Shown here in pieces: positions 22,512 to 32,100 of a stretch of DNA of 64,000 nt. Positions within the stretch are counted from its first letter, which is position 1; the number at the start of each line of letters is the position of its first letter. The notes under the pieces were generated by a model. The model was not told where the DNA came from, ran no database searches, and saw only the letters and a program-made list of their open reading frames with translations. This DNA comes from Bacillota bacterium (GTDB lineage: Bacteria; Armatimonadota; HRBIN16). Both the position numbers and the translations under genes were made by a program. The stretch lies in NCBI GenBank assembly GCA_023511455.1, contig JAIMBJ010000004.1, positions 62,001-126,000 on the forward strand, written 5' to 3'.

Positions 22512-23393
22512 TCAGTAACCGTACAGCCCCCAGAGCGCCCAGTCGCCGACCCAGGTGGGCTGCCGATTGACCGTCCATGCCATGCCGCTTGGGAATTCGT
22601 TGCGCGGGTTTGGCTGATATTCCTGCGCCGTCGGGCACTTAGCCAGGAACTCGCGGATGTTCATCCACTTGGCATGCCCATCCACGTAGGTGATAATCAT
22701 GCCTTCCGAGTGCGGGGCATTGTTCTTGTTCAACACGCCGTTCTGGTAGAACCACCTCTCCCACAGATGGCGATGTGCCATCGGGTAGATGGTCTGGATG
22801 GGCTGCGGTCCATACACATAGTGGCGCACACCGGGGAAGCGGTCTTCCATCAGTATCATGGTCTCTGCGGGTCGCTGTACGCCAGCCAGCGTGCCGCCCA
22901 GGAAAGAGTTGCGGATTTGCTGGGCGTTGCCTGTGCGGTTCCAGGTGTTCAACGCGCCCGTGATGTGCAGCGCGAGCGAGTAGCCGCCGTCGAAAATCTC
23001 GGCGTTCTGCTGCCATGCCTGCTGGTCAAACTGGCGGCTGGGACAGAAGAAAATCTGGATGTTCTTCACGTAGGGGTAAATCCAGTACTGCCACTTGTAG
23101 TGGTTCACGCGCTGCCCGTAAGTGGGACCGCTGCAGCCTACCGCGGTGGGCTGATAGGGCACGACGTTGGGCGCGATGCAATCGTCGTTGCGGGGGAAGG
23201 TCTCATCGTAGTCGCTGACGTACATCGCGATGCCCAGCCCAATCTGCTTGCAGTTGGACAAGCAGGTGGTCTGACGCGCCTTATCGCGCGCCTGGGCAAA
23301 AACAGGGAACAGAATCGCTGCCAGTATCGCGATTATCGCGATAACCACCAGCAGCTCGATAAGCGTGAAGGCGTTACGTTTCAAAGTTGACAT
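22512..23393 (-). CDS. Type II/IV prepilin-like protein with H-x9-DG motif
   Basis: A secreted pseudopilin-type protein of about 293 residues. The N-terminus carries a short basic leader and the prepilin motif [20 protein letters not shown], with cleavage expected before FTLIE by a prepilin peptidase. [20 protein letters not shown] follows, and near the C-terminus [13 protein letters not shown] fits the H-x9-DG motif of 'processing-associated' prepilins, common in planctomycetes and Armatimonadota. Such proteins often occur in many paralogs of unknown role. Start choice: ATG 23393 stands only one base after GGAGG; a TTG at 23384 has nine-base spacing and would give [10 protein letters not shown], which looks more natural. 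It begins 25 bases after glnB and is probably cotranscribed with it. Confidence 0.9.
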
Positions 23394-23418
23394 TCCTCCT
23401 TGTCTATATTTGAGTGTG

Positions 23419-23772
<354 letters not shown>

Positions 23773-26617: not shown

Positions 26618-27001
26618 TCATTCTGCGCAGAAGCCGTTCGTCCGATGCCCGCGCACGGCGCGATACACCCGGCTCAGAAGGTCTGACAGACTCAACTGCT
26701 CACACACCGTTTCGTCGTCGCCTAACCGGGAGAGGAAGCGGAGCAGCGACCTTCTGAGGTCGTCGCGGTGTGCCGGTTCCTGCTCCGCCCCTACAACCTG
26801 CACGACCGGGACACGTATCCTCGGGAATCGCCCGCTTACGACCTCCTTGCACCGAAGGTTCAGCAAGCGGCCCTCTGAATCGTAGGCGACATATTCATTC
26901 TGCTGCACGTCGGTGGGCTCTACATACTGCTCAAGGTCCTGAACAGCATCGAAGACCTCGATGTCGCCTGCGCTATCTACCAAAACAAATGGTGGACGCA
27001 T
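26618..27001 (-). CDS. Candidate immunity protein of orphan Rhs tip 3
   Basis: 127 residues, acidic, with no membrane segment. It contains EPTDVQQNEYVAYDSEGRLL, a pattern ('...NEY..YDxEGRLL') I associate with small proteins found beside polymorphic toxins, but the family cannot be named with certainty. ATG 27001 lies 29 bases inside the end of the tip-3 frame, an overlap typical of toxin-immunity pairs. The ribosome-binding site is weak, consistent with coupled translation. The last gene of the Rhs array; it converges on the HExxH gene with a 66-base gap that holds nothing recognisable. Confidence 0.55.
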   Translation of the reverse strand: MRPPFVLVDSAGDIEVFDAVQDLEQYVEPTDVQQNEYVAYDSEGRLLNLRCKEVVSGRFPRIRVPVVQVVGAEQEPAHRDDLRRSLLRFLSRLGDDETVCEQLSLSDLLSRVYRAVRGHRTNGFCAE

Positions 27002-27293
27002 TGCTTAAAACCTGTGCCAAAACGACCTGGAGGTTAGTAAGCTCATCAAACCAGTCATCCCCACTCGGATCCACACAATTAACCGGCTCGTGCTCGCAAT
27101 ACAGATACGGATGCTCGCTCAGCACCGCATCCCGCGAGATACACCGCCCCACCCGCGGGTCGTGGTAGCGCGCCCCGACGTGTAGCAAGCCCGTATCGCT
27201 GTCAGCTACCGTATTACCCAGATGGGGGTTAGGGCTCCCTCTGCCCAAAGCGTCTGCTAGTCCAACACCAGTATCCAATGGTTGGTATCCCAA
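26973..27293 (-). pseudogene. Orphan Rhs C-terminal tip 3
   Basis: A displaced 3' end of an Rhs gene without the rest of the protein. Rhs-core similarity begins near 27230 (NTVADSDTGLLHVGARYHDP) and continues RVGRCISRDAVLSEHPYLY to the core boundary CEHEPVNCVDPSG. The tip after DPSG has only 28 residues (DDWFDELTNLQVVLAQVLSN, then eight more). The frame stays open back to 27293, overlapping the 2TM gene at 27229-27483, where it is not Rhs-like. No start codon with a good ribosome-binding site is seen, so it is probably silent unless recombined with a full rhs gene. Confidence 0.75.
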
Positions 27294-27483
27294 GCATTAT
27301 TGCCATACCAACCGGATCTTTGAAGAACGGGTTGTGATAGGATGGGTCGAACCTGCTGTAGATGAAACTTGCGACGATAATACTAACCATCCCTCCTAAC
27401 CATGTTCCTACGTCTCGCCAAAATCTATGGGTTTTGCTTTCCCTGCTTTGCACCTCCGCCACCTCCACCTCCGAGAGCAGCAC
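27229..27483 (-). CDS. Small two-helix membrane protein, candidate immunity (tip 2 cassette)
   Basis: Up to 84 residues; two hydrophobic segments (WLGGMVSIIVASFIYSRF and GMAIMLGIPTIGYWCW) separated by DPSYHNPFFKDPV. It is a paralog of the protein at 28785-29057: both share 'SYxNPFFxDxxGxAIxxGxPT'. GTG 27483 overlaps the tip-2 stop (TAGTG). A later GTG at 27453, eight bases after GGAGGTGGCGGAG, may be the true start. The position directly behind a tip suggests an immunity role; this is inferred from context. Confidence 0.6.
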   Translation of the reverse strand: MLLSEVEVAEVQSRESKTHRFWRDVGTWLGGMVSIIVASFIYSRFDPSYHNPFFKDPVGMAIMLGIPTIGYWCWTSRRFGQREP

Positions 27484-27920
27484 TACAAGCCCAATTCATC
27501 GAGCATGGCGTTGTACATCTTCAGCTTTTCCAGCTTTCCACGCAGACCGGTCCAGGCATCTTTCACGATATCGTAGAGTTGTTCGCCTCCCTCCCAGATC
27601 TGGTCTCCTATCCACACGCCTACCGCGCCGCCCAGTCCCATGCCAATCCATGCACCGGGTGGGCTAGCTACTACTCCGCCGATATCGCCCCCTATACCAG
27701 CACCAATACCACCCCAGAACCAGTCCCAGTAGTCCTTGAACGGTCTGTATCCACTCGGGTCCACGCTACTAACCGGCTCATGCTCGCACTACAGATACGG
27801 ATGCTCAGAAAGCACCGCGTCCCGGCTGATGAACCGCCCCACCTGCGGGTCATAGTAGCGTGCCCCGACGCGGAGCACACTCGCATCACCGTCATCGTCG
27901 TAGATCGCGAGTACTACACA
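27483..27920 (-). pseudogene. Orphan Rhs C-terminal tip 2, interrupted by a stop codon
   Basis: Rhs-core similarity starts near 27910 (IYDDDGDASVLRVGARYYDP, QVGRFISRDAVLSEHPYL). A TAG then stands where tip 3 has the Tyr of YLYCEHEPVN, and the frame continues CEHEPVSSVDPSG into the tip. The tip (86 residues after DPSG, to 27483) is rich in glycine and hydrophobic residues: GGIGAGIGGDIGGVVASPPG followed by AWIGMGLGGAVGVWIG, then an amphipathic Lys/Glu end. This resembles glycine-zipper pore-forming peptides. The nonsense change and the missing upstream core make it a silent remnant or reservoir. Confidence 0.75.
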
Positions 27921-28249
27921 TAATTCACACTCGCCGGCGTATCCTTCCGACCAGTTACATCACCCATCAAAGCGAGGCCTATCAGTTTGTGGAATAACAT
28001 CAATGTGCCTCGCTGCAACTTGGGGTACACCAGCGACACTACAAGCCAGGCGGTCAGGGTTTTAAAATAGTATTCACCGAATTCTTGTCCCAGCCATGTC
28101 CACATAGAAGGTCCACCTGTCGCCTGGTACCATACACTAAGAATCAATCCGCCCAGCAATGTTGTGAAAGCACTGAAAAGCACAGCTGCTAGTATCCAGC
28201 GCCACATCAAGAAGCCCACTGTCCGGATTGCCGCACGCATATCCCTCAT
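27914..28249 (-). CDS. Three-helix membrane protein, candidate immunity (tip 1 cassette)
   Basis: About 111 residues from ATG 28249 (ATG 28240 is also possible) near GGAGGGG. Three hydrophobic stretches: WILAAVLFSAFTTLLGGLIL, TLTAWLVVSLVY and LFHKLIGLALMG. No family recognised. It follows orphan tip 1 by 58 bases, and its stop is exactly where Rhs-core similarity of tip 2 resumes. Context alone suggests it protects against the tip-1 product. Base composition looks more A/T-rich than that of the flanking operons. Confidence 0.55.
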   Translation of the reverse strand: MRDMRAAIRTVGFLMWRWILAAVLFSAFTTLLGGLILSVWYQATGGPSMWTWLGQEFGEYYFKTLTAWLVVSLVYPKLQRGTLMLFHKLIGLALMGDVTGRKDTPASVNYV

Positions 28250-28307
28250 CCCCTCCAGATGCAATACTGCTGCACTGTGCTCTAAACACCGTGCCGCTGC
28301 GGTTATT

Positions 28308-28790
28308 TCATCTGACCCAAACGGGAGGATGGTCGGCGTAGTATGCTGCCATCTCACGCGCGGTGCGCTTTATCCAGTTCCACAATCTGCTGGCGTCGCC
28401 CTCCTCCCATGCAACTCCTACTGCAGCCAGTGCTCCAGCTACCGCGCCTGGTAGTCCTCCCAGCAGTACACCTCCACCACCGAGCACGATAAGGTTAACG
28501 ACAAATGTTTCCACCTTAAAATACCCACTCGGATCCACATGATTGACCGGGTCATCCTCGCAATACAGATACCGGTTCAACGACAATGGGCGATACAGGT
28601 TGCCCAGCCACTTGTCCGCGCTCGTCCACCTGCCTACCGCCGGCTCGTAGTAGCGCGCGCCGATATACAGCAGCCCCGCATCGCCATCATCGCGGTAGCC
28701 CCATGCGCCCGCAAAGCGATAGGGGTTGCCGCTGCTGCCCCACTGCGCCACCGGGTTGCCGAAGGCTTCGGTTGTGACAGTCGCTCAGTC
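28308..28790 (-). pseudogene. Orphan Rhs C-terminal tip 1
   Basis: An open Rhs 3' end without an N-terminus. It starts after an in-frame TGA at about 28792 with TVTTEAFGNPVAQWGSSGNP, continues with YRDDGDAGLLYIGARYYEP and SLNRYLYCEDDPVN up to HVDPSG. The 71-residue tip begins YFKVETFVVNLIVLGGGGVL and contains LGGLPGAVAGALAAVGVAW. The core part is nearly identical at DNA level to the same part of the main rhs gene (30352-30520). An 8-bp tandem repeat CAGTCGCT (28778-28785 and 28786-28793) sits exactly at the junction with the preceding gene, like a recombination scar. No usual start is present. Confidence 0.75.
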
Positions 28791-29057
28791 GCTCAAACGA
28801 CGTCGCCAGCGGGCAATTCGCCCCCAGAACGCTTCAGCATCTCTCAGATGTCCACCTTTGCGCCATCGCAACAAATAAAACATCATCGTCGGAAAGCCTA
28901 TCACGATTGCTATCCCATCCCAGTCGTCAAAGAATGGATTGTTATAGGATGGAAAGAAGTGCGCACCAATGAAGTTGCCAGCGATGATGCCAATCATGGC
29001 TGCTACCCATTCTATCAAACAATACGAGACGCTCTGTTTTTTCGACACGTGTATCAT
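28785..29057 (-). CDS. Small two-helix membrane protein, candidate immunity (main rhs cassette)
   Basis: 90 residues from ATG 29057, with GAGGAGGAC seven bases upstream. Two hydrophobic segments, LIEWVAAMIGIIAGNFIGAH and GIAIVIGFPTMMFYLL, flank PSYNNPFFDDWD; the C-terminus is strongly basic (RIARWRRRLSD). It is a paralog of the 27229-27483 protein. Its last codons lie in the 8-bp tandem repeat that marks the junction to orphan tip 1. No known family was recognised. Confidence 0.65.
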   Translation of the reverse strand: MIHVSKKQSVSYCLIEWVAAMIGIIAGNFIGAHFFPSYNNPFFDDWDGIAIVIGFPTMMFYLLRWRKGGHLRDAEAFWGRIARWRRRLSD

Positions 29058-29103
29058 TTTAGTCCTCCTCGGGATGTCCTCACGATAGCGAACATGGATC
29101 GTT

Positions 29104-29472
29104 CTATCGCATCGACGTAAACACGAGTAAAGCCACTGCAACAAAGAGCGTGACCGATACCCCCTGCAGGAAACCAGAGAACCATGTATTGCGTTCGCGG
29201 TCGTTCCATATGCAGACATGCGACCCACTGAGGGTTAAACCAATAAACGCAGTCAGCAGGGGAAGCTGCGACGCATAGAGCGGGATTCCTTCGGCCAGCC
29301 TGACCACCACGTAGCCGGCCAGAGACGCAGCAGTGAGAACATCGCCCCAGATAGCCCTTACCATCTTCGGGTCGTGTAAAGAAGCACGCTCACGGATGTG
29401 CCATGCGGCGGATGTCAGTAGCAGTACCGCGGCAATCAACAATACCCCCAGCTCAGCCATCTGTAACGCCAT
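29104..29472 (-). CDS. Four-helix membrane protein of unknown function
   Basis: 122 residues from ATG 29472 behind AGAGGTGAG; four hydrophobic segments (LGVLLIAAVLLLTSAAW, LTAASLAGYVVVRLA, LPLLTAFIGLTLSGSHV, VSVTLFVAVALLVF). The start is five bases after the stop of the TPR gene, so the two are cotranscribed. It belongs to the cassette directly behind the main rhs gene. It may take part in immunity against the main tip, but nothing in the sequence proves it. Confidence 0.6.
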   Translation of the reverse strand: MALQMAELGVLLIAAVLLLTSAAWHIRERASLHDPKMVRAIWGDVLTAASLAGYVVVRLAEGIPLYASQLPLLTAFIGLTLSGSHVCIWNDRERNTWFSGFLQGVSVTLFVAVALLVFTSMR

Positions 29473-29477
29473 AAGTC

Positions 29478-29924
29478 TCACCTCTGCGTAGACTGCTCTC
29501 GTTGTATTTCCGACAATTTGCTCTTAATCTCAGCCAGCTTGGAGGGTGCGTATTTGGTGTCTCCCAGGTCCGCGGATTTGCGAAACGCCTGGGACGCCCC
29601 TTCAAGGTCGCCTGTGTGCAGGTAACACGCGCCGATGCGGTTATAAACTGCGATTTGCGCACGTAAACTTAAATCAGAAGGCAGGTTTCCGGTATGTGGC
29701 AACGCCGAAAGATAACCATCTATCGCCTCTTTGTAGTGTCCTCGCCGTTCCATCTCCAAAGACCGTTGCATGATTGCAGAGTATGTATATATACTGTCAG
29801 AAAATTTCCGTTGTGTCCAAACTGCGCGGAGCTGATATGCATGTTCGACGGTGAGTGCCAACAGCAACATCAGGACTGCGGTTAATACAGCCCCTCTCAA
29901 CGTGTCACAGGCATTGCCTTTCAT
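29478..29924 (-). CDS. Membrane-anchored TPR-like protein
   Basis: 148 residues from ATG 29924 (GAGGAGGT at six bases). An N-terminal membrane segment (GAVLTAVLMLLLALTVEHAY) is followed by two to three TPR-like helical pairs (HYKEAIDGYLSALPHTGNLP; AVYNRIGACYLHTGDLEGAS). The C-terminus is a charged helix. TPR modules bind proteins; the partner is unknown. It is the first gene after the main rhs gene, separated by a 201-base gap, and leads a cassette of three genes (29924 down to 28785). Confidence 0.65.
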   Translation of the reverse strand: MKGNACDTLRGAVLTAVLMLLLALTVEHAYQLRAVWTQRKFSDSIYTYSAIMQRSLEMERRGHYKEAIDGYLSALPHTGNLPSDLSLRAQIAVYNRIGACYLHTGDLEGASQAFRKSADLGDTKYAPSKLAEIKSKLSEIQREQSTQR

Positions 29925-30049
29925 TGCGATACCTCCTCTTCCGAATCTCTTTTTCAGTTGCAGAGGTTACCGCTTGAGAGTAAAACGAATTTTCTTCTGG
30001 ACAGACTCAGCACCTAGCCTATATGATACAGTTCACGACATTAAGGAGA

Positions 30050-30113
30050 AGCAGGCTTCAAAGATGCACAGCATTCACTGCCCGGCTCTTCAGCCTGCTG
30101 GGAAAAGCCTGCT
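30050..30113. repeat. Competing inverted repeats after rhs
   Basis: AGCAGGCT (30050-30057) can pair with either of two AGCCTGCT copies, at 30092-30099 or 30106-30113; the second pairing extends by one base (AAGCCTGC with GCAGGCTT). The two stems exclude each other. It lies in the 29925-30125 gap between the rhs stop and the TPR gene and may be a processing or termination structure; there is no T-run. Confidence 0.4.
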
Positions 30114-30125
30114 CCTCCCCTCCTT

Positions 30126-31959
30126 TCACGGTCCCTTGTAATCAGGGTCACTCAGCCGTTCCATCATCCTAATCTGGTGTTCGTGGCTTCTACCATACAC
30201 TCCTCCCCAAGAGTGTCCCTCCTCCCGCTCTTTCGACCCCATCCACTCCGCAAACTCTCTTGCAGCCAGTATGGCAAGGATGCCAATAGTTACAGCGATG
30301 CTTATACCACGAAGCCATGGCCATAGCCTATTAGGCCGCCTGCCTGTGGGATCTACGCTGTTAACCGGGTCATCTTCGCAATACAGATACCGGTTGAGCG
30401 ACAGCGGGCGATAGATATCCCCCAACCACTTGTCCGCGCTCGTCCAGCGACCCACCGCCGGCTCATAGTAGCGCGCCCCGATATATAGCAGCCCCGCATC
30501 CCCATCGTCGCGGTAGCCCCAATCGCCGGCTAAGGTGTATGCCGTGCGGAAACCGGCGTCCAGCCGCTCCCCAAAGGCGGTGAAGTAACCGATGTAGGTC
30601 ACCCAACCGCCAGTTTCGTCGGTGTGTACCCGCGCCGAACCCAGACGGTCACCGCCACTCCACCACTGGTCGCCCCACAGGATGTTTACCGCGTTCACCA
30701 TGCCCCCCGCCCAGGTATACTTCCAGTCCATCATCAGATGGTTGTTTGGGTTGGGGTTATTCCACTGCTCGCGAAGCAGCGCGTCCCCCGCGAAGCGGTA
30801 AACAACCGAACGAGACGCACCCGAGTCGCTTACCCACCGGAAGAACCGGCGCCCGAGACCGTCATAGTTATAAAGGTGCGTGAAAATCATTTGACCTGCT
30901 ACTGAGCGAACAATTCGCTGCAGGCGGTCCTCCTCGTCGTAGCCAAAGGTGATGGTCACGCCATCCACCGTGCGCGACACCATGTTACCGTTGGCATCCC
31001 ACGCATAGGTGACCGAACCCGCACTCAGCAACCGGTTGTCATCATCGTAAGTGTAGTTCGTGACCACGCCATCCCGCACCTGTTGCACCCGGTTGCCTGC
31101 CGCGTCATACACCCAGTGCATCTCATACGCGACATACCCCTCCACTCGCCAACGGCAAAGCGCACACCCGTCAGTTTATTGCCGGTATACTGGAGTTGAA
31201 TCGCCCGCCCCGATGGGTCGCTGACTTGGGTTAGCAGCCCATTGGAATCGTAGGTAAGGGCAATGGCGTTGCCGTTAGTGTCTACGATGCGAGAAAGCCG
31301 ATAGTGGTTAATCACATTGGTGGGTTCGAACTCCAGCCGCACCTGCGACTTCAGGGTGAGCGCGTAGCTGTTTCCCGAAGCAGATAGTCGGTCGCGATAG
31401 CCATCACGCGGAACCCACTGTCCGCCCTGCAGGTCGAACAGCTGTATGGTTTGATGCCCCCACACCACGACAGCACGGTTCTGCTGGGGGTGGACGTTCA
31501 GATGCGTATCATAGGTGTGGCTCCACTTGGCGCCGATGGCAGGGTTGGTATACGCTGCCTTGCTATTGTGGTGCAGGCTAAACGATACCGGTAGCCCCCC
31601 ACGTGCTCGCCAGCTCACCAGAGGAATGTCCGTCTGCTTTGCTCGGGAGACGGCGTTGATGCCTGCCACACTTGCCTGCCACGAGTGCCCCGAACCGGAA
31701 CCCGCGGCGTCACCATCGTCCGGGGCAGGTGGAAGCACCTGTGACGCCATGACGGCGGTTGCCAGCGTATAGTTGGCATGGAGGTGCAGTTGAGTGGCAT
31801 AAGCGGAGACGGTGTTGGCGAGGATAATCCCCAGCGAGGCAGCTGCCGCGAGGATACTACTAAGCGCGGTTACCCCCCCGCCGCTTTTGTAAGCAGGAAT
31901 ACGACAGAAAGAGCCAATGCGAGGGGTTTGGTCAAGAAGCGTTTGCGAACACGGTTCAT
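30126..31959 (-). pseudogene. Rhs-repeat polymorphic toxin gene with two frame breaks
   Basis: The natural start is ATG 31959 behind AAGGAGGA, giving signal-like MNRVRKRFLTKPLALALSVV. The frame stops after a G7 run (31873-31879). One more G would join it to the long frame that continues ALSSILAAAASLGIILANTV. That frame holds the Rhs N-terminal region (GLPVSFSLHHNSKAAYTNPA, TNGNAIALTYDSNGLLTQVS) and breaks again at a G4 run (31137-31140). Adding one G gives a continuous EWRGYVAYEMHWVYDAAGNR. The last frame holds Rhs repeats, GLLYIGARYYEP, RYLYCEDDPVN and the boundary SVDPTG. The tip (70 residues) has one membrane segment (ISIAVTIGILAILAA). About 610 codons is short for an Rhs protein. Both breaks are single-base deficits in homopolymers, so sequencing error is possible. 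Confidence 0.8.
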
Positions 31960-32100
31960 GACGTTGTTCCTCCTTAGTGTGACGTCGTGTTTTGCGGGTA
32001 TTATGCACCGCAAGTGCGCACTGATGCACGATGGTTAAGCGATAAACTGTTTGAAAATTTCAAGGTTTTTTACGAGGGTTGCTGCATTGCGATGCACCTG

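Follow-up and report, generated by a model that had tools for sequence, protein, structure and literature searches.

Can small membrane proteins encoded among the Rhs cassettes of a bacterial genome be immunity proteins for particular toxin tips? The question is raised by a window of 64,000 nucleotides (the whole stretch of DNA analyzed here), in which two such proteins, A (27229–27483) and B (28785–29057, 90 aa), are encoded on the reverse strand. A sequence-only reading had described them as two-helix paralogs in different Rhs cassettes, one behind tip 2 and the other in the cassette of the main rhs gene, and had proposed that they are immunity proteins whose diverged ends track tip variation. 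Below, G-numbers denote genomes and L-numbers denote loci within the analyzed set.

A and B are genuine paralogs, with 43% identity across 54 aa (50.8 bits, E 4e-15). Their Smith-Waterman score is 124, compared with a mean of 25.8 (sd 4.8, maximum 54) for 5000 plain shuffles and a maximum of 74 for another 5000 shuffles that kept the pattern of hydrophobic and other residues. The shared pattern SYxNPFFxDxxGxAIxxGxPT is matched exactly in both proteins; however, it extends into the second helix and is not confined to the stretch between the helices, where it had been placed. The ends have indeed diverged: only the core is clearly shared, and neither the N-terminus of A nor the C-terminus of B is matched in the other protein. 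By hydropathy, A and B have two membrane segments each, in agreement with the two-helix description, and every complete member of the wider family is 77–90 aa long with two hydrophobic segments. Judged by their sequences, A and B thus have the size (about 70–100 aa) and the two membrane helices of the Tsi5 and CdiI types of immunity protein. A low-confidence structure model of A (pLDDT 66.5, pTM 0.36) puts helices at residues 2–45 and 57–79, with the NPFF turn in between, and only P-F-F plus one G are invariant across the wider family. Translated from the GTG at 27483, A has 84 aa; from the GTG at 27453 it would have about 74 aa, and the latter is probably the true start, since the ATG of the G003 relative aligns there. 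B is preceded by a strong ribosome-binding site, GAGGAGGACTAAAATG. A and B are the only two clear copies of the hairpin in the genome that holds the window.

A single-sequence search of 101 genomes matched five of them. A profile built from seven alignment rows was then run against 291 genomes of the phylum and matched 13 of them at E ≤ 0.01. Eight places in six of the 291 genomes are clear (E ≤ 5.2e-6), and with leave-one-out profiles all seven alignment members were recovered at 4e-12 or better. The seven weaker places (E 6.8e-5 to 0.0095), whose fetched loci contain no Rhs RYYxP-type motif, seem to be chance hits in other proteins; several of them resemble what we take to be parts of pilus-assembly membrane proteins. 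All eight clear places are Rhs loci, and in seven of them the hairpin lies directly 3′ of one kind of Rhs tip, a glycine zipper marked by WDWFWG. These seven are A in the window, one in G003, two in G005, one in G002, one in G006, where the contig end cuts the gene so that the hairpin is partial, and one in G059, a member of a different family of the same phylum. The neighborhoods are therefore those that had been predicted for immunity proteins, and the outcome named beforehand as speaking against immunity, homologs mostly away from toxin loci, was seen at none of the eight places. Pattern scans for the hairpin over 84,980 species, which reach close relatives only, gave no further homolog, nor did one scan of viral contigs or a tblastn search with A against plasmids. 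The family is rare, small and new, and of an already known kind. As for the phylum itself, a prepilin signature at 22512–23438 makes Armatimonadota the probable one.

The cassette that contains A is the simplest to interpret. Displaced Rhs tip 2 (27483–27758, reverse strand) is a putative glycine-zipper toxin tip of the form PSG...YWDWFWG, and ahead of it lies an Rhs core remnant (27758–27920, reverse strand) that is interrupted by an in-frame stop; because of this stop, tip 2 is probably silent at its present position. A directly follows tip 2, as had been noted, with its start within 30 bases of the stop of the tip. The components of an orphan Rhs cassette are present here: a displaced tip with a core remnant, apart from a full carrier, and then a candidate immunity gene. 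Tip 2 very probably has its immunity protein in A. Structure models of tip 2 reached a pLDDT of 83.3 in one of five cases and 58–65 in the other four.

What kind of toxin would tip 2 and its relatives be? In each except the cut tip on contig 2 of G005, the Rhs core is followed by a DPSG-type end, the WDWFWG stretch and then a long glycine zipper. There are 8–17 GxxxG motifs in each of five WDWFWG tips, and glycine makes up 23–26% of their residues, so by sequence these tips have the repeated GxxxG motifs and the membrane-insertable segment expected of a glycine-zipper pore toxin. When the same 291 genomes were searched with a profile of the tip, seven clear places were found (E ≤ 7.8e-19), with a hairpin behind the tip at all seven; they are the same places as the seven tip-linked hairpins. 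One weak match occurred in G198 (E 7e-4). Because the tip alignment was built from tips that precede known hairpins, the tip search depends in part on the hairpin search. The tip and the cut-off hairpin of G006 were recovered even though the profiles contained neither. None of the seven WDWFWG tips in the 291 genomes is carried on a full-length Rhs protein, and their open frames are 86–211 aa long, so that in these genomes the toxin is nowhere met in a working state. Between the stop of the tip and the start of the hairpin lie about 0–40 bases in the window, G003, contig 5 of G005 and G006, and about 140 bases in G059.

Could the hairpin be a general companion of Rhs tips? The genus contains 142 Rhs core matches across 10 genomes. 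Of 69 tip starts, four were set aside because the tip had fewer than 15 residues or lacked a stop. The remaining 65 tips, at 64 loci, make up the survey, which covers nearly all of the 142 core matches plus the G059 locus; it omitted one near-duplicate pair on contig 9 of G003, and the broken tips of G002 and contig 2 of G005 were missed by it. Five of the 65 tips are of the WDWFWG type. A hairpin lies behind all four of those with room downstream and behind none of the 60 others (Fisher 1.6e-6, a value that is indicative only, because related tips recur and independence is overstated). The fifth, in G006, was dropped from the test with less than 200 bases downstream, though a partial hairpin is present there. 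A and six other members, but not B, are found directly behind a tip, and the pairing of the family, again with the exception of B, is specific to one tip type.

The correspondence extends to subtypes. Long tips (contig 5 of G005, G059 and the broken one of G002) are paired with hairpins that have no GxPT motif, and short tips (the window and G003) with hairpins that bear it. The proposal that the partners track tip variation is therefore supported for A and its orthologs, with their matched tip and hairpin subtypes, but not for B, which has no matching tip or remnant. Between the window and G003, dN/dS is 0.48 for A (73% identity) and 0.25 for its tip (88%), and between the hairpins of G005 contig 5 and G002 it is 0.32; all these values rest on short sequences. 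In G002 the hairpin frame is open and the tip is broken, and on contig 2 of G005 only the second half of the tip is left and the hairpin frame contains a stop.

Both hairpin and tip fall outside the curated families of the libraries tested. Pfam, NCBIfam and PADLOC gave only sub-threshold matches for the two proteins and for the tips, as did PHROGs, which was searched with A, B and tip 2; the Pfam glycine-zipper models scored below their cut-offs on the tips. In profile searches of solved structures, the hairpin had chance-level matches only, the best at E 0.3, and the tip had weak low-complexity ones, the strongest of them (E 0.012) to a haemolysin component. Foldseek with the low-confidence model of A produced one unconvincing match (E 5.5). 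The tip and hairpin pair was not found in literature searches; these sought parallels, and absence of the pair from print is unproven.

Several known systems are similar in their features. Tse5 of Pseudomonas aeruginosa is a pore toxin formed by a membrane-active Rhs C-terminal tip, and it is neutralized by Tsi5, a membrane immunity protein with two predicted transmembrane helices (PMC9637101), to which tip 2 and A are comparable in these features. As a difference, Tse5, a type VI effector, starts with a PAAR-like segment; the carriers here appear, by eye, to start with a segment resembling a secretion signal, and their tips are found in displaced cassettes. The CdiI proteins of CDI ionophore toxins are highly polymorphic hydrophobic two-helix hairpins of 72–100 aa with both ends cytoplasmic, and the toxin has a putative glycine zipper (PMC11630599); Imm-CdiI is likewise listed with two transmembrane helices in a catalogue of polymorphic toxins (PMC3482391). 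The likeness to CDI, drawn from features, lies in the size and helices of the immunity hairpin and in the putative glycine zipper of the toxin (PMC11630599), but the carrier there is CdiA rather than Rhs, and A and B have no Pfam or NCBIfam match above cut-off. In Staphylococcus aureus, EsxX is a depolarizing glycine-zipper toxin countered by the membrane proteins ExiCD, and orphan membrane immunity genes are described in antitoxin islands (PMC12744356). This combination of glycine-zipper toxin, membrane immunity and orphan immunity genes resembles what is proposed for the window, although EsxX is a type VII LXG toxin and its immunity consists of a polytopic protein pair plus a soluble pair. 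Finally, the layout of the cassettes in the window is that of the orphan rhs modules of Salmonella, in which a displaced tip and a downstream immunity gene lie behind the main rhs gene, the tip frame having no initiation signals until recombination (PMC3967940); the window differs in having a bank of several cassettes, a broken main carrier and membrane-type tips. The closest working parallels of A and tip 2 are the Tse5/Tsi5 pair and the CdiI hairpins that accompany CDI ionophores.

The position of B is less simple. The main rhs gene (30126–32029, reverse strand) was compared with the 1085-aa Rhs protein of G005: its downstream piece (30126–31145) aligns to residues 754–1018, and its upstream piece (31025–32029), in another frame, to residues 9–258, so that about 495 middle residues are missing in addition to the frame change. 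By this alignment, therefore, the main carrier of the window is broken, and the cassettes remain. Long Rhs frames occur elsewhere in the genome, e.g., one of 1022 aa on contig 19, with a core 98% identical to the query core. The main tip (30126–30341, reverse strand, 71 aa) has one hydrophobic helix. Behind it, a tight run on the same strand comprises a TPR protein with a hydrophobic N-terminal segment (29924–29478), a 125-aa multi-helix membrane protein (29481–29104) and B (29057–28785). B is thus in the cassette of the main rhs gene, as had been stated, in the sense of belonging to this run, but it is the third gene, and two others intervene.

No glycine-zipper tip or WDWFWG remnant was found before B in 28740–30130 (best E 1.8), and a DNA search with the B region across the genus matched only the shared core junction. 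One match of tip 2 at 30642–30713 (E 0.003) falls inside the Rhs core and was judged to be chance. The 125-aa protein, probably a second immunity gene, has relatives near an Rhs core or cassette in three other genomes of the genus: in G009 the relative lies behind the end of another membrane-type tip, and the relatives in G008 and G001 follow another gene that probably confers immunity. In G009 and G008 it is followed by an Rhs core without B, and no relative of B was found beside any of the three. Since there is no tip remnant ahead of B and no B relative beside the 125-aa relatives, the stretch 28785–29481 looks like two immunity genes retained without their toxins. B is best read, from its sequence context, as an orphan immunity gene, either stranded or extra, rather than the partner of the main tip, and it appears to have lost its matching tip. 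Viewed by locus, the 125-aa relatives at L097, L086 and L129 are all near Rhs cores, two of the three behind other probable immunity genes, suggesting that they may be stored tip-less immunity genes.

In our opinion, the reading that A and B belong to a small inner-membrane, two-helix immunity family against WDWFWG pore tips, with A the partner of tip 2 and B a tip-less orphan, is likely to be correct. Its direct support comes from the paralogy, the membrane-hairpin sequences, the exclusive linkage to one tip type and dN/dS values below 1. For such a system we infer toxicity, pore formation, protection and a switch by recombination, as follows. The cognate toxin would be an Rhs C-terminal tip of 90–110 residues, beginning with WDWFWG and continuing into the long glycine zipper; fused to Rhs, it would insert into the cytoplasmic membrane of a neighbor and form an ion-leaking pore. 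The hairpin, residing in the same membrane, would pack against the toxin helices and block insertion or assembly. The cassette of tip 2 and A would become active only once recombination across the common Rhs core has moved the tip onto a carrier, and B would be a paralog without a tip, kept or drifting in the cassette bank as an orphan immunity gene.

Other explanations should be weighed against this reading. B might instead protect against the main tip, either by itself or in an immunity operon with the TPR and 125-aa proteins, given its place in the tight same-strand run, its strong ribosome-binding site and a main tip that is short, with a hydrophobic helix, and hence a candidate membrane inserter. 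However, every other member of the family adjoins a glycine-zipper tip, and the main tip does not resemble those tips; B is third in line, and in G009 and G008 the 125-aa relative precedes an Rhs core with B absent. No other genome of the genus has the main tip, and relatives therefore give no reading of its true partner. On balance we consider this role for B unlikely. That the whole array is a decayed graveyard, in which both A and B are now functionless, seems about equally improbable: the main rhs gene is broken, the core ahead of tip 2 has a stop and decayed pairs exist in G005 and G002, but the frames of A and B are open, dN/dS is below 1 in two pairs (short sequences), and the genome has long open Rhs frames elsewhere, such as that on contig 19.

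The strict one-to-one linkage behind the tip would be equally expected if the hairpins were helpers of the tip, e.g., membrane chaperones or insertion partners that form the pore together with the tip, and not immunity proteins. Yet a hairpin frame stays open in G002 despite the broken tip, and B exists without any tip; in addition, known Rhs and CDI pore tips neighbor two-helix immunity proteins in the systems described above (PMC9637101, PMC11630599). We regard the helper role as very improbable. Compared with these alternatives, the immunity reading, with A as the partner of tip 2 and B as an orphan, is preferred, and it supplies a compact, testable toxin-immunity pair from a little-studied lineage, whose tip and hairpin are both without a curated family. 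The matched subtypes, together with the stranded paralog B, could be used to gauge how far a hairpin can diverge before protection ends.

More speculatively, the stretch from the main tip to tip 1 may be a polyimmunity bank, in which the genes of the 125-aa protein and B are stored without their toxins and guard against the pore tips of sister species, tips being swapped among carriers elsewhere via the Rhs core; we put this forward as a tentative idea, somewhat more doubtful than not. If it were true, the NPFF hairpin would represent an undescribed immunity family, and the Rhs glycine-zipper pore tips to which it is specific would be an equally undescribed class, both from a phylum in which systems of this type have received little study.

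The array also contains other displaced cassettes on the reverse strand. Tip 1, with its Rhs core (28308–28751; tip 28308–28547), is glycine-rich, ends in YADHPPVW and represents a second kind of glycine-rich, predicted membrane tip. A related tip lies on contig 19 of this genome (L078), and a hydrophobic protein is encoded behind both; the one in the window (27914–28357) is the probable partner of tip 1. Tip 3, with its Rhs core remnant (26973–27293), contains DDWFDxLTNLQVVL and is followed by a 127-aa protein (26618–27001). Tip and partner recur almost unchanged, in the same order, at L123 of G007; there the core match is part of an open frame of 1008 aa. Judging from the two loci, the tip 3 module (26618–27293) seems to sit in a displaced cassette in one species and on a carrier in the other. 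Many other tips of the genus (L012, L078, L086, L098 and others) are glycine-rich or strongly hydrophobic and predicted to be membrane-active, and the next genes behind many tips encode membrane proteins. From these sequences, the genus may favor pore-type Rhs tips. In addition, the Rhs carriers (31025–32029, reverse strand, in the window, and L011:4605–7862) begin, as judged by eye, with a signal-peptide-like segment and not with a PAAR domain, which, if true, would mean export by a route other than type VI.
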